Shown: positions 8,312-49,491 of the stretch, piece by piece
Numbering within the stretch: position 1 is the stretch's first letter
Layout: each line of letters opens with the position of its first letter
From: Pseudomonadota bacterium
GTDB taxonomy: Bacteria > Pseudomonadota > Gammaproteobacteria > Burkholderiales > Thiobacillaceae
Reading direction: 5' to 3'
NCBI GenBank assembly: GCA_021820845.1
Contig: JAKADC010000003.1
Coordinates: 186,001 to 250,000, forward strand
Length of the DNA stretch: 64,000 nucleotides
Notes under the pieces: generated by a model
The model's database searches: none
The model's input: the letters and a program-made list of their open reading frames with translations, nothing else
Told to the model about the DNA's origin: nothing
Position numbers and translations under genes: made by a program

Positions 8312-9429
8312 GCGAGCACCACCAGATTGTCGCGATGGATCATCTCCGGCTCGTCCATGTAGCCGAGTTCCTTCTCGATGGCGCTGCTGGGTTTGCCGGC
8401 GATTCGACGCGCTTCGCTGGCGCTGTAATTGGCCAGCCCGCGCGCGATTTCCCGGCCCTCGGGATCGACGATCGCCACCACTTCGCCACGCTCGAACTCG
8501 CCGGTGACGCCTTTCACGCCGACCGGCAGCAGGCTCTTGCCGTCCTCCCGCAGCGCGCGCACCGCGCCATCATCGAGCACGACGCCACCGCGCAATTGCA
8601 GGTGATCCGCCAGCCACTGCCGCCGTGCCGCGAGCGGCGCCTGGCGTGCCACCAGCTGGCTGCCGATCGCCTCGCCCGCCGCCAGCCTCAACAGCACCCG
8701 CTCCTCGCGCCCGCTGCAGATCACGGTATGGGCGCCGCTGCGCGCCGCGCGCTTGGCGGCAAGAATCTTGGTCAGCATGCCGCCGGTGCCGACGCTGCTG
8801 CCGGCTCCGCCCGCCATGCGCTCGAGCTCGGGGTCGCCGGCGTGGGCATCCATCACCAGCGTGGCATCGGGCTGCTTGCGCGGATCGGCGGTATAGAGGC
8901 CGGGCTGGTCGGTGAGGATGACGAGGCAATCGGCTTCGATCAGATTGGTGACCAGCGCGCCCAGCGTGTCGTTGTCGCCAAGGCGGATCTCGTCGGTGGC
9001 GACGGTGTCGTTCTCGTTGATGATCGGCACCACCCTGAGCTCCAGCAGCGTGCGCAGGGTGGAACGCGCGTTCAGGTAGCGCGTGCGGTCGGCCAGGTCC
9101 TCGTGGGTCAGCAGCACCTGCGCGGCGTGCAGGCCATGCGTGCGGAAAATCGATTCGTATGCCTGGACCAGGCCCATCTGCCCGACGGCGGCGGCGGCCT
9201 GCAATTCATTGACGGCACGCGGACGTTTTTTCCACCCCAGCCGCGCGATGCCCTCGGCGATCGCGCCCGACGAGACCAGCACCACCTCTTTTCCCTGCGC
9301 GGTCAACGCGGCGATCTGTTCGGCCCAGCGCGACAGGGCGGCGTGATCGAGTCCGCGCCCCTCGGCGGTGACGAGACTCGAGCCGACCTTGACGACGATG
9401 CGCCTGGCGTGCCTCACCACGGCGTGCAT
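8308..9429 (-). CDS. proB: Glutamate 5-kinase
   Basis: First enzyme of proline synthesis, phosphorylating glutamate. 373 residues: an amino-acid kinase domain ([57 protein letters not shown]) followed by a C-terminal PUA domain from about residue 275. The start is the ATG that overlaps the upstream gene's stop by 1 bp; the frame stays open further upstream but reads through that neighbour. proA is not in the window. It is followed directly by cobC and btuF, an unusual metabolic pairing. Confidence 0.95.
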
Positions 9430-46065: not shown

Positions 46066-46191
46066 GCGGTCGTCGCCGGTTGCTTCGCGTATAGTTTCCG
46101 GGTGCCGCCGGCGGGTCGGGCCGGCGATTTCGCCGCGCTGCTCCGGCGTCCCGGCCCTTCGAAACGCAACCGCTCACACGACACACGCCGC

Positions 46192-46572
46192 ATGAAAACG
46201 CTTCACGCCCTCGTCGATTCCCCCTTCCACCCCGACTTCAGCGCGCTGTACCGCGAACTCGGGATCGCGTCGGAGCGTTTCGCCTCCGCCCGCAATCTTC
46301 ATCGGGCGATGCAGAAGCAGCCGCCGGATTTCTTCATCGGCGAGTTCGTGTACGGATGGGGAAACAATTATGCCGGCGCGAACGTCTCCAACCTGGACGT
46401 CACGATCCGGTCGCTGCAGCGCTTCGCCCCGCAGGCGAAGGTGATCGTGCTCATGCATCCGCGCGAGGCGCCGCATATCGACAAGCTGCTCGAACTCTTT
46501 CCCGTCCATGCCGTGCTGACCTACCCGGTTTCCGAACAGGCGATGCGGGAAGCGTTGCAGCCTGCGGCCTGA
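46192..46572 (+). CDS. Small receiver-like protein lacking the phosphorylation residues
   Basis: 126 residues with the pattern of a CheY-like fold: PDFFIGEF where the phospho-acceptor should be (E51 in place of Asp) and VHAVLTYPV where the conserved Lys-Pro should be (Tyr111). It may be a pseudo-receiver; the similarity is weak. It ends 11 bp before rlmA-like and is probably cotranscribed with it. Confidence 0.65.
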   Translation: MKTLHALVDSPFHPDFSALYRELGIASERFASARNLHRAMQKQPPDFFIGEFVYGWGNNYAGANVSNLDVTIRSLQRFAPQAKVIVLMHPREAPHIDKLLELFPVHAVLTYPVSEQAMREALQPAA

Positions 46573-46583
46573 CCGCCCAGCCG

Positions 46584-47432
46584 ATGCCCGTCATCCCGTT
46601 CCGGGCACTCGGCTGTCCGCTCGACGGAGCGCCCCTGCGGCTCTCAGGCGCCGCCTGGACCTGCGCCTCGGGACACAGCTTCGACGTCGCAAGCCAGGGC
46701 TACACGAATCTGCTGCCCGTGCAACACAAGCGGTCGCGCGATCCGGGCGACAGCAAGGACATGGTCGCGGCGCGGCAGCGCTTTCTCGCGGCGGGTTTTT
46801 ACCAGCCCATCGCCGCGGCGGTGAGCCGCCTCGCGCTCGACGGCCTGCCCGCCGACGCAAGCCTCAGTTGCCTCGATGCCGGATGCGGCGAGGGATATTA
46901 CCTGCGGCAGCTCGCCGAAGCGGCGGGCGACGCGCCAACCCTCGCCCTGTTGGGCGTCGATATTTCCAAGTGGGCCGTGCTGTCGGCCGCGAAGCAGGAC
47001 AAGCGGATCAACTGGGCGGTCGGCAGCAACGCCAAGCTGCCGGTGCTGCCGGCCACGCTCGATCGCGTGCTGTGCCTGTTCGGATTTCCCGTCTATGCCG
47101 AGTTTGCGCGGGTGTTGAAGCCGGGCGGCAAGCTGCTGCAGGTCGACGCGGGACCCGACCACCTGCGTGAGTTGCGCGAAGTCATCTACCCCAGCCTCAA
47201 GCCCGATCGCACGACCGCGCCGCAGGCGCCGGCGGGCTTCAGCCGCCTGCCGGCGGAGACGCTCCACTTTTCGATTGCCTTGCGCGACCCCGCGCAGATC
47301 GCCGACTTGCTTGCGATGACGCCGCATCTCCACCGTGCCAGCGCGGAGGGACGGGCGCGCGCCGCCGCACTGACGTCACTCGCGCTGAGCGTGGATCTGC
47401 GCCTGACGTGTTTCGAGCGAAACACGGATTGA
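46584..47432 (+). CDS. rlmA: RlmA-like 23S rRNA (guanine-N1)-methyltransferase
   Basis: 282 residues. The N-terminal zinc segment CPLDGAPL ... CASGH has C11, C27 and H31, but the second cysteine of the E. coli CPLC motif is Asp14. The family hallmark YTNLLPVQHKRSRDPGDS is intact, followed by the SAM motif LDAGCGEGYYL. RlmA methylates G745 of 23S rRNA. Loss of one zinc ligand could weaken metal binding. Confidence 0.87.
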   Translation: MPVIPFRALGCPLDGAPLRLSGAAWTCASGHSFDVASQGYTNLLPVQHKRSRDPGDSKDMVAARQRFLAAGFYQPIAAAVSRLALDGLPADASLSCLDAGCGEGYYLRQLAEAAGDAPTLALLGVDISKWAVLSAAKQDKRINWAVGSNAKLPVLPATLDRVLCLFGFPVYAEFARVLKPGGKLLQVDAGPDHLRELREVIYPSLKPDRTTAPQAPAGFSRLPAETLHFSIALRDPAQIADLLAMTPHLHRASAEGRARAAALTSLALSVDLRLTCFERNTD

Positions 47433-47448: not shown

Positions 47449-47784
47449 CTATTCCTGCGACACTTCCTCCAGGTCGCGAAACAGATCGTTCCAGGACACG
47501 TCGGCGTTCCGCACGAAGCAGGCGACTTCCGCGACCCCGCAGACGGACAGCTCGTTTCCCATCATCATCCAGCCCCGCGCAGGCCAGCCCGTCGTGCCCG
47601 AGACGGTCATGAGGATATCGCTTGCATGTTGCATGATGCGCCCGTTGGCGTAGCACAGTTCCGCAGCCAGTTGCGCGTCGAGCTGCTCCAGCTCCCCGGC
47701 GGCCTCGGCGAGCGTGCCGTCGTCATAGAAACGCAACGTGGCGATGACGCCCTTGATTCCGGACAGGCTTTTTAAGCTCGGCAT
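47449..47784 (-). CDS. DUF2173 family protein (copy 1, last of three)
   Basis: 111 residues. Pattern shared with its two upstream neighbours: LSGIKGVIATLRF, GELEQLDAQLAAELCYANG, a Gly-Trp turn, and VCGVAEVACFVR. DUF2173 proteins are small, roadblock/profilin-like in predicted fold, common in sulfur-oxidising proteobacteria, with no known activity. It lies 27 bp after copy 2. Confidence 0.82.
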   Translation of the reverse strand: MPSLKSLSGIKGVIATLRFYDDGTLAEAAGELEQLDAQLAAELCYANGRIMQHASDILMTVSGTTGWPARGWMMMGNELSVCGVAEVACFVRNADVSWNDLFRDLEEVSQE

Positions 47785-47811
47785 GGTGTTCTCCTCGTAC
47801 CGGCGCCGCGC

Positions 47812-48144
47812 TCAGGCGGCGGCGTTGAAAAGCCGGTAGGCCGCGTCGTAGTCGAAATCCTTCCTGTGCGCGAGCACCGCATTTCCGTTCATGCCCATGA
47901 CCGCATGATCCAGCGTCACGAAGACGAAGCCGCGTTCGGGAAGAAACCCCTGCTGCGCCGTCAACTTCGTCCATCCGGTTGCCTGCATGCGGTAGGTCGC
48001 CATGTTGGCGGCGCACATGTGCGCAATCAGCTCCGCAAAATCCCGGTCCAGCTCGCCGCGCACCTGGCCCAGCTCACCCATGCAGGAAAACTCGACCGCG
48101 CCGTACACGCCGGGCAACGACATCAGTTCATCCAATGTTGGCAT
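47812..48144 (-). CDS. DUF2173 family protein (copy 2)
   Basis: 110 residues beginning MPTLDELMSLPGVYGAVEFS, then QVRGELDRDFAELIAHMCAAN and FVFVTLDHAVMGMNG. It matches the same template as copies 1 and 3 while being diverged, so the triplication is old. It overlaps copy 3 by 17 bp. Confidence 0.82.
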   Translation of the reverse strand: MPTLDELMSLPGVYGAVEFSCMGELGQVRGELDRDFAELIAHMCAANMATYRMQATGWTKLTAQQGFLPERGFVFVTLDHAVMGMNGNAVLAHRKDFDYDAAYRLFNAAA

Positions 48145-48511
48145 TTGGTTCTCCTTTTCCGGGCTTGAGGAGTTCGCTGTCGGCCGACTCTGTCATGGCT
48201 TTGATCAGGCGGTTGAACGAAGTCTCGCGCCCGCGCACGAGGCACACGCTGTCGTGGATCGCGACGATGGACATGTCCGGTCCCCACGTCACCCAGCAAT
48301 AACAAGCGTCCCAGCCCGGCTGGTCGGCCATGCGTCCCAACAGCCGTCCCTGCATTTCGGTGGACATCGTGACGGCCGCGCACAGGTTGGCCATTTCGCC
48401 CGCCTCCGCCTCGGTCAAGGCCCCTTCGAACTCTTCCAGCAGGCCTTTCCTGGAAAAAATACCGGCGGCCACGGTGCCGGGTAATTTCATCAGCTCAGAT
48501 GTTCTCGACAT
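48128..48511 (-). CDS. DUF2173 family protein (copy 3, first of three)
   Basis: 127 residues beginning MSRTSELMKLPGTVAAGIFS, followed by EAEAGEMANLCAAVTM, a Gly-Trp turn (QPGWDACYCWV) and VAIHDSVCLVRGRETS. The ATG was chosen because the family homology starts there; the frame opens 58 codons earlier into the GST promoter region. Copies 3, 2 and 1 form one leftward operon. Confidence 0.82.
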   Translation of the reverse strand: MSRTSELMKLPGTVAAGIFSRKGLLEEFEGALTEAEAGEMANLCAAVTMSTEMQGRLLGRMADQPGWDACYCWVTWGPDMSIVAIHDSVCLVRGRETSFNRLIKAMTESADSELLKPGKGEPNANIG

Positions 48512-48699: not shown

Positions 48700-49491
48700 A
48701 TGACCCGTCCGACCATCTACAACATTCCCGTCTGCCCCTTCAGCCAGCGACTCGAAATCCTGCTGACGCTGAAAGGCTTGCAAAACGAAATCGACTTTCG
48801 CGTGATCGACATCACCCAGCCCCGGCCCGAATGGCTTCTGCGAAAAACGCGAGGCACGCCTACGCTGCCCGTCCTCGAGACCGCGGACGGCGGGATCGTC
48901 AAGGAAAGCCTGGTCATCATGCAATACCTGGAGGATCTTCACCGCGAACAGCGGGTGGCGCAGCGCGATCCTTATCGGCGCGCGGTGGAAAACATGGTGA
49001 CGCAGATGGCCGGCGACTTCGTCACGCGCGGCTACGGCTGGCTGATGAACCAGGATCCGGCGCGACGCGATGCCTGCCGCGCCGAGATGCTCGGGCAGTA
49101 CGCGCAACTGAACGACTTTCTGCTGGCGCACGCATCCGCTTCGCCGTTTCTCTTCGAAAATTTCGGTTGGGCCGAGGCGGTATTCACGCCGTTCTTCGTC
49201 CGCTTCGAATACCTGGAGTATTACGAGGACTTCGCGCTGCCCGACGAGCCGCGCTATGCGCGCGTGGCGGCGTGGGTCGCGGCCTGCCTCGCGCATCCGG
49301 CAGCCCAGCAAGTCAGCCGGGAGCAGGTGGTCAAGCTTTATTACGACTACGCGAAGGGCGCGGGCAACGGCGTGCTGCCGCCGGGCCGCAGCAAATCGTC
49401 GATGGCCTTCGAGCCCGATTGGCGAACCCGCCCATGGCCGCCGCGGAACAAATACGAGCACGGCGCCACCGATTCCGAACTGGGCCTGTGA
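48700..49491 (+). CDS. Glutathione S-transferase family protein
   Basis: 263 residues. The N-terminal thioredoxin-like domain has a glutaredoxin-like CPFS motif (C12) and RGTPTLPVLETADG with the glutathione-binding ES (VKESLVIMQYLEDL). The helical C-terminal domain follows, ending with an unusual 40-residue tail rich in Pro/Arg. The substrate is unknown. It is divergent from the DUF2173 operon. Confidence 0.87.
   Translation: MTRPTIYNIPVCPFSQRLEILLTLKGLQNEIDFRVIDITQPRPEWLLRKTRGTPTLPVLETADGGIVKESLVIMQYLEDLHREQRVAQRDPYRRAVENMVTQMAGDFVTRGYGWLMNQDPARRDACRAEMLGQYAQLNDFLLAHASASPFLFENFGWAEAVFTPFFVRFEYLEYYEDFALPDEPRYARVAAWVAACLAHPAAQQVSREQVVKLYYDYAKGAGNGVLPPGRSKSSMAFEPDWRTRPWPPRNKYEHGATDSELGL

Follow-up and report, generated by a model that had tools for sequence, protein, structure and literature searches.

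Introduction

Roadblock proteins dimerise through strand beta-3 and helix alpha-2, and two eukaryotic assemblies of this kind, Ragulator and p14-MP1, serve Rag GTPases. In Myxococcus xanthus, MglB and MglC are Roadblock-fold paralogues with less than 9% identity which form a 4:2 hetero-complex (as reported in PMC7949163), and paralogues this diverged can therefore co-assemble. The three-gene DUF2173 locus described here resembles this pair in its predicted Roadblock fold and in consisting of diverged paralogues, and differs from it in three respects: it has three members and not two, co-assembly is shown for MglB/MglC whereas for the triplet we infer it, and MglB/MglC are tied to the GTPase MglA, whereas searches of the host genome recognised no GTPase of this kind.

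The proteins of the locus match Pfam family PF09941 (DUF2173) in full, a family that is itself uncharacterised. In literature searches without most subscription journals, a single paper mentioning DUF2173 by name came up; no work on a DUF2173 complex was found, nor anything on COG4831, which presumably bears a Roadblock label. A two-gene DUF2173 cassette also occurs in Aquificota and in some Hydrogenophilales, with its DUF2173 genes in tandem as in the triplets.

In this work we analysed a window (the whole stretch of 64,000 nucleotides, from a genome of the Thiobacillaceae) and followed its DUF2173 triplet through related genomes. Based on these comparisons, we think it fairly likely that each of the three genes encodes a specialised subunit (A, B or C) of a single hetero-oligomeric scaffold with the Roadblock/LC7 fold. 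Hetero-oligomeric Roadblock proteins are known; the novelty would lie in a bacterial set of three subunits that are inherited together and have no evident GTPase. Should the complex prove real, the uncharacterised DUF2173 family gains a fold and a likely quaternary structure, the series of one, two and three subunits makes it possible to follow how a hetero-oligomer grows as genes duplicate, and a Roadblock system without an evident Ras-like GTPase becomes available for asking what Roadblock proteins do beyond GTPases.

Results and Discussion

The triplet in the window

The locus and its immediate flanks contain the following features:

48128..48511, minus strand: subunit A, DUF2173 protein of 127 aa (open reading frame and Pfam match)
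47812..48144, minus strand: subunit B, DUF2173 protein of 110 aa (open reading frame and Pfam match)
47449..47784, minus strand: subunit C, DUF2173 protein of 111 aa (open reading frame and Pfam match)
48128..48144, minus strand: 17-bp overlap of genes A and B
48150..48156, minus strand: Shine-Dalgarno-like AAGGAGA of gene B, within the coding end of A
46530-47432: methyltransferase gene, converging with the triplet, related to the 23S rRNA methyltransferase RlmA (below the equivalog cutoff)
48700-49491: GST-like gene, diverging from the triplet

The original prediction described three consecutive small proteins of 127, 110 and 111 residues, with a 17-bp overlap between two of the genes, and this is what we find: all three reading frames are intact and consecutive on the minus strand, the overlap lies at 48128-48144, B and C are spaced by 27 bp, and the whole sits between the methyltransferase and the GST-like gene. 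The overlap is found in 12 of the 14 window-type triplet loci listed (the exceptions being L060 and L038), and in all 12 the AAGGAGA of gene B lies inside the end of A, an arrangement which suggests translational coupling of A and B. Five loci of a sub-type (L074, L075, L079, L082 and L083) have a gap of 10-12 bp instead of the overlap. Near the triplet, a 130-residue protein (46182-46572) has no Pfam or NCBIfam match at E<=1; relatives of it stand in the triplet loci L059, L062 and L064, and also in L070, which has a single-copy DUF2173 gene.

Family assignment and predicted fold

Each of the three proteins matches PF09941 across the whole model, at 98.6 (A), 112.9 (B) and 102.5 bits (C), with E from 3e-28 to 1e-32 and a curated cutoff of 26.1 bits, while their pairwise identities are 24.8-26.1%; the common template and the wide divergence claimed in the original prediction are both confirmed. 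When searched against the Robl_LC7 family (PF03259), A reaches 16.7 bits (E 0.006) versus a cutoff of 23 bits, B and C have no match at E<=1, and the whole host genome gives a single match, at 16.6 bits, under the cutoff. By the rule of that Pfam family the proteins therefore lie outside it, and the Roadblock assignment is based on the fold. An NCBIfam search of A, B and C gave no match, as did a PADLOC search for a link to defence (E<=0.1), and a sequence search of solved structures returned only a xylanase at E 0.3, which we take as chance.

The AlphaFold models of A (67-row alignment, pLDDT 90.0, with residues 117-127, the last 11 of its C-terminal tail, below 50) and of B (77-row alignment, pLDDT 95.3) both show the order helix-strand-strand-long helix-three strands-helix, which is the alpha-beta-beta-alpha-beta-beta-beta-alpha order of the Roadblock/LC7 superfamily, as in its solved proteins. 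When compared with the PDB using Foldseek, the best match of each model was a Roadblock/LC7 protein, 3kye for B (E 3.3e-6) and MglB, 1j3w, for A (E 5.4e-6), and the structural alignments to 3kye with VIA-align gave Z 13.6 over 101 residues (rmsd 2.1) for B and Z 16.4 over 111 residues (rmsd 2.0) for A. B is also like Ragulator (5y39, Z 12.2) and p14-MP1 (2zl1, Z 12.3) in fold; both are heteromers of different subunits, according to the titles of their PDB entries, and, unlike the triplet, eukaryotic. A and B are thus confidently predicted Roadblock/LC7 folds, and C would have the same fold by homology. For the function of the family, which the original prediction called unknown, the models of A and B narrow the question to a Roadblock/LC7 fold.

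Copy number and distribution

A search of the whole host genome gave six DUF2173 matches at E<=1, all above the cutoff, including a second triplet:

8487-8891, 8975-9313 and 9324-9659 of contig C20 (locus L036): second triplet, DUF2173 matches

This second set is more diverged and complete, and stands upstream of ilvI, ilvC, psd, pssA and leuA (names assigned by eye from the sequence). For each window protein, the highest score is obtained with its positional counterpart in the second triplet (109 for A, 157 for B and 149 for C), whereas scores between different positions range from 25 to 77. The two sets of the host would form separate, dedicated complexes rather than being spare copies of one. 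The second-triplet A (L036, 8487-8891) shares 87-93% identity, also over its tail, with five relatives belonging to two genera; the window's A reaches at most 79% identity to its nearest tree row.

DUF2173 is rare in a phylum-wide sample of 397 genomes, where the host itself is the one carrier. In the host family it occurs in 64 of 117 genomes, 59 of them in two genera, and 52 of the 64 carriers have exactly three copies (37 genomes, 28 from the host genus and 9 from genus g12) or exactly six (15 genomes). The other carriers include genomes with a triplet and a pair (G057, G074), with two triplets and an internal (G059) or contig-end (G099) fragment, with one triplet and a contig-end fragment (G076) or a broken locus (G071), with a contig-end fragment only (G103), with one copy (three genomes of genus g4, and G037) and with a pair (G012). 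Seventy-one loci (67 distinct), out of 75 with triplet-type genes, carry A, B and C in that order; of the others, L015 and L098 are truncated at the end of a contig, and in L023 and L085 the frames are broken.

Twenty genomes were also reached via their loci, at least three of which (G522, G530 and G531, judged by match positions) were already in the family list. This set comprises five Competibacter-type genomes, each with exactly three copies, two Thiobacillus-type genomes with six, seven Aquificota-type genomes with two or four, two other pair genomes with two, and four single-copy genomes (G521-G524). In a sample of 121 Aquificota genomes, 50 had a DUF2173 match and 40 of these had exactly two or four copies (36 with two, four with four); one more had three, through a pair split by frame, and nine had one, namely seven weak matches (one below the cutoff), one cut short and one with a stop. 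Stops also occur in two of the 36 pairs (G572, G581). The seven weak frames, 213-231 codons long (G556, G575, G582, G587, G599, G637 and G644), perhaps represent a longer relative of the domain. Single-copy relatives with decaying extra copies, the pattern which the original prediction had set against itself, were looked for and do not appear in this genus.

Phylogeny of the subunits

Two trees were built, each on 113-114 usable alignment columns and each with a warning that long branches meet; the cut or broken loci L015, L023, L055, L063, L085 and L098 were left out of them. In the quick tree (236 rows, 67 distinct triplet loci), a single branch sets the 67 A rows apart from all others, and the same holds for the 67 B rows and the 67 C rows (SH-aLRT 87, 94 and 93). 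In the careful tree, with 61 rows from 23 loci picked for diversity after the quick tree was seen, the groups have bootstrap/SH-aLRT supports of 97/82 (A), 99/98 (B) and 98/95 (C), and they span both triplet types and the triplets of Competibacter-type bacteria. The presence of separate A, B and C groups across triplet types indicates that one ancient triplet was probably retained and duplicated as a whole. The genes of Competibacter-type triplets nest within the three subunit groups, next to those of the second triplet type; the set therefore either predates this genus or was transferred whole. The nearest tree rows of the window triplet are mostly Thiobacillus records.

That all window-type triplets descend from one origin separate from the other type was rejected on the 61 rows (AU p 0.0017, a value which may lean toward our reading, given that the rows were hand-chosen after the quick tree) and not rejected on the 236 rows (AU p 0.453); we give more weight to the careful tree, hand-chosen subset though it is. 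In that tree, the first gene of the two-gene version joins the B group (97/91), and A and C are neighbours under a midpoint root (83/89). Two loci titled Rhizobium and Synechococcaceae (L064 and L095) have triplets falling among Thiobacillus and Competibacter rows and are probably mislabelled bins.

One complex or three homodimers

The hetero-oligomer put forward in the original prediction is well supported by the evolutionary record, in which there are three ancient lineages, a fixed A-B-C order, mostly complete sets and purifying selection (see below); the assembly itself is something that we infer. Co-inheritance, separate lineages and selection together suggest an obligate three-subunit Roadblock complex. 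In it, A, B and C would bind each other via the usual Roadblock surfaces, the edge strand beta-3 and the long helix alpha-2, and B may be the hub, pairing with both A and C, a role suggested by its grouping with the first two-gene subunit and by A and C being tree neighbours. Such a complex would operate without a Ras-like GTPase, as a platform holding or gating a partner protein.

The main alternative, which we consider unlikely without dismissing it, is that each gene product forms an independent Roadblock homodimer, the three having separate though related tasks and sharing a transcript merely for convenience. MglB was solved as a homodimer (title of PDB entry 3t1s), the single-copy relatives G521-G524 indicate that the domain can occur alone, and co-inheritance in one operon is also compatible with three homodimers whose tasks are linked. 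Against independent homodimers, partial triplets are rare among the 75 triplet-type loci, 71 of which hold A, B and C in order, and both triplets of the host genome are complete.

Sulfur oxidation

A second alternative to the three-subunit scaffold is that the proteins are a dedicated part of sulfur oxidation, a tie hinted at in the original prediction, which proposed mapping the family in sulfur-oxidising genomes. The carriers include Thiobacillus-type bacteria and Aquificota, dsrA is present in 64 of the 65 genomes of the two main carrier genera and, in one report, a Sulfolobaceae DUF2173 protein, there called a membrane protein, is up 99-fold and 32-fold on sulfur (PMC11323534), which leaves room for a link between DUF2173 and sulfur in some lineages. 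Within the host family, however, the link through dsrA is not specific: dsrA occurs in 107 of the 117 genomes versus 64 for DUF2173, and only 4 of the 43 dsrA-bearing genomes outside the two main genera carry DUF2173, so that DUF2173 is no general part of Dsr sulfur oxidation and the suggested tie proves weak. Moreover, no sulfur-oxidation gene was recognised among the seven scanned neighbours in the window or, by eye, around the second triplet. Full triplets also occur in Competibacter-type bacteria, which are not known as sulfur oxidisers. Taken together, we find a dedicated sulfur role improbable.

Search for partner GTPases

The fold match to MglB (best E 5.4e-6, for A) also raises the idea that the proteins regulate a small Ras-like GTPase in the manner of MglB, as a GAP or an exchange factor. 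Membership of the MglB type calls for an MglA-type partner GTPase in the genome, and in searches of the host genome with the Arf and ATP_bind_1 models, in which a Thermus genome was positive as a control, no MglA-sized small GTPase was recognised. The only Arf match over the cutoff lies in a frame of 923 codons, taken to be IF-2 by its length, and ATP_bind_1 gave sub-cutoff matches only. In three other genomes of the genus, the frames with Arf matches are 925, 1018 and 943 codons long; the genome with the 943-codon frame (G081) has a further weak match in a 304-codon frame. Among the triplet loci whose gene tables were inspected by eye, the only GTPase recognised was a SelB-like translation factor (L060). 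In favour of a GTPase partner elsewhere, Aquificota-type pair carriers have Arf matches in frames of about 180-200 codons, and one of the five Competibacter-type genomes (G527) has a weak match, over the cutoff with its in-frame neighbours, in a frame of 225 codons. The models used may also have missed a more strongly diverged GTPase. An MglB-like GTPase-activating role is unlikely in the host and, as an explanation of the family, we rate regulation of a Ras-like GTPase as very improbable.

Selection and subunit signatures

Rates of substitution (Nei-Gojobori, only pairs with dS of 0.1-1.5) show purifying selection on all subunits, with no relaxed subunit group. The median dN/dS values of A, B and C are 0.22, 0.11 and 0.16 in the window type, 0.08, 0.13 and 0.17 in the second type, 0.23, 0.13 and 0.26 in the sub-type (six, six and nine pairs) and 0.16, 0.10 and 0.10 in the Competibacter type, and the highest value of any single pair is 0.58. 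Recent tandem duplication followed by decay, which the low identity among copies, the orphan fragment L110 (in G059), the broken locus of G071 and the broken frames of L085 might bring to mind, is hardly credible in view of these medians of 0.08-0.26, which largely refute it unless the pairs are atypical, and of the three lineages common to Thiobacillus-type and Competibacter-type triplets.

Among the subunit signatures, a DDG motif in the first hairpin is common to the C subunits of all three groups; as a private mark of C it was rejected, since the second gene of pairs often carries DDG too. Two cysteines of C (window numbering) are nearly invariant, Cys82 in 66 of 67 rows (19+36+11) and Cys89 in all 67 (19+37+11). 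From the strand limits of the B model, these residues are predicted to face each other across the two-residue turn of a beta-hairpin. Both cysteines are also found in all 11 Competibacter-type A subunits, and B subunits have a cysteine at either position in under half of every group.

The two-gene cassette and gene neighbourhoods

The two-gene version of the locus, whose first gene groups with B, differs from the triplets in its surroundings:

L042-L056: loci with two-gene cassettes (example: L050, 4730-8998)

A gene of the SCP2 family lies downstream of the pair in all 15 two-gene loci (those of L042, L044 and L046 being absent from the gene calls and found by a profile search of all reading frames), and a PAS sigma-54 activator, recognised by Pfam, lies near the pair in 13 of the 15, L044 and L046 being those without. 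L049 and L050 have two pairs each, and every one of these pairs is accompanied by an SCP2 gene of its own, separated from the second pair of L050 by a small gene. The promoter scan left out L055, where the pair is split, and L056, which is truncated to a single gene. In 10 of the 15 pairs covered, that scan found a -24/-12 element beginning 48-71 bp before the start codon (shuffle p <=0.035), and the sigma-54-like promoter, together with the nearby activator, indicates that the activator probably drives the pair operon. The same scan of triplets gave shuffle p <0.05 in two of 37 loci (window included), at unrelated positions, which we take as chance; among four single-copy loci, L058 also had p <0.05.

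By contrast, neither SCP2 at E<=1e-3 nor an activator above 200 bits was found in any of the 71 triplet loci, of which 67 are distinct and 42 exceed 6 kb in length, in a search set of 73 loci which included the split pair L055 and the broken L023; weak activator-profile matches of 17-25 bits occur in L059 and L061. The locus gene tables retain some false genes. In the host family, the SCP2 profile exceeds 130 bits only in the three pair genomes (G057, G012 and G074) and in G001. The window-type neighbourhood recurs in Thiobacillus-type loci, the second type adjoins ilv genes and the Competibacter type adjoins an L,D-transpeptidase (YkuD) gene, and the locus gene tables revealed no constant neighbour common to both triplet types. 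The constant neighbours which the original prediction proposed to look for thus exist for the two-gene version, as SCP2 and the sigma-54 activator, and none was found across the triplet types.

Extending the three-subunit scaffold with these observations, one may speculate, as a doubtful elaboration, that it is a GTPase-free bacterial counterpart of the eukaryotic Roadblock heteromers, a fixed A-B-C platform with a stepwise origin from one to two to three genes, in which Cys82/Cys89 of C would act as a redox or metal switch, and whose two-gene version, controlled by sigma-54, would be coupled to an SCP2-type protein that binds lipids or quinones.

Three minor observations concern the cassette genes. 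The SCP2 match of G001 (contig C28, 39185-39565) scores 136.7 bits, in a genome without a DUF2173 match at E<=0.001. In G059 (contig C35), an orphan internal DUF2173 fragment (L110, 4938-5168) stands about 3 kb from a pair-type sigma-54 activator gene and is perhaps the relic of a lost pair cassette. Additionally, the PAS regions of several pair-type activators show, by eye, a C-x6-C-x2-C pattern.
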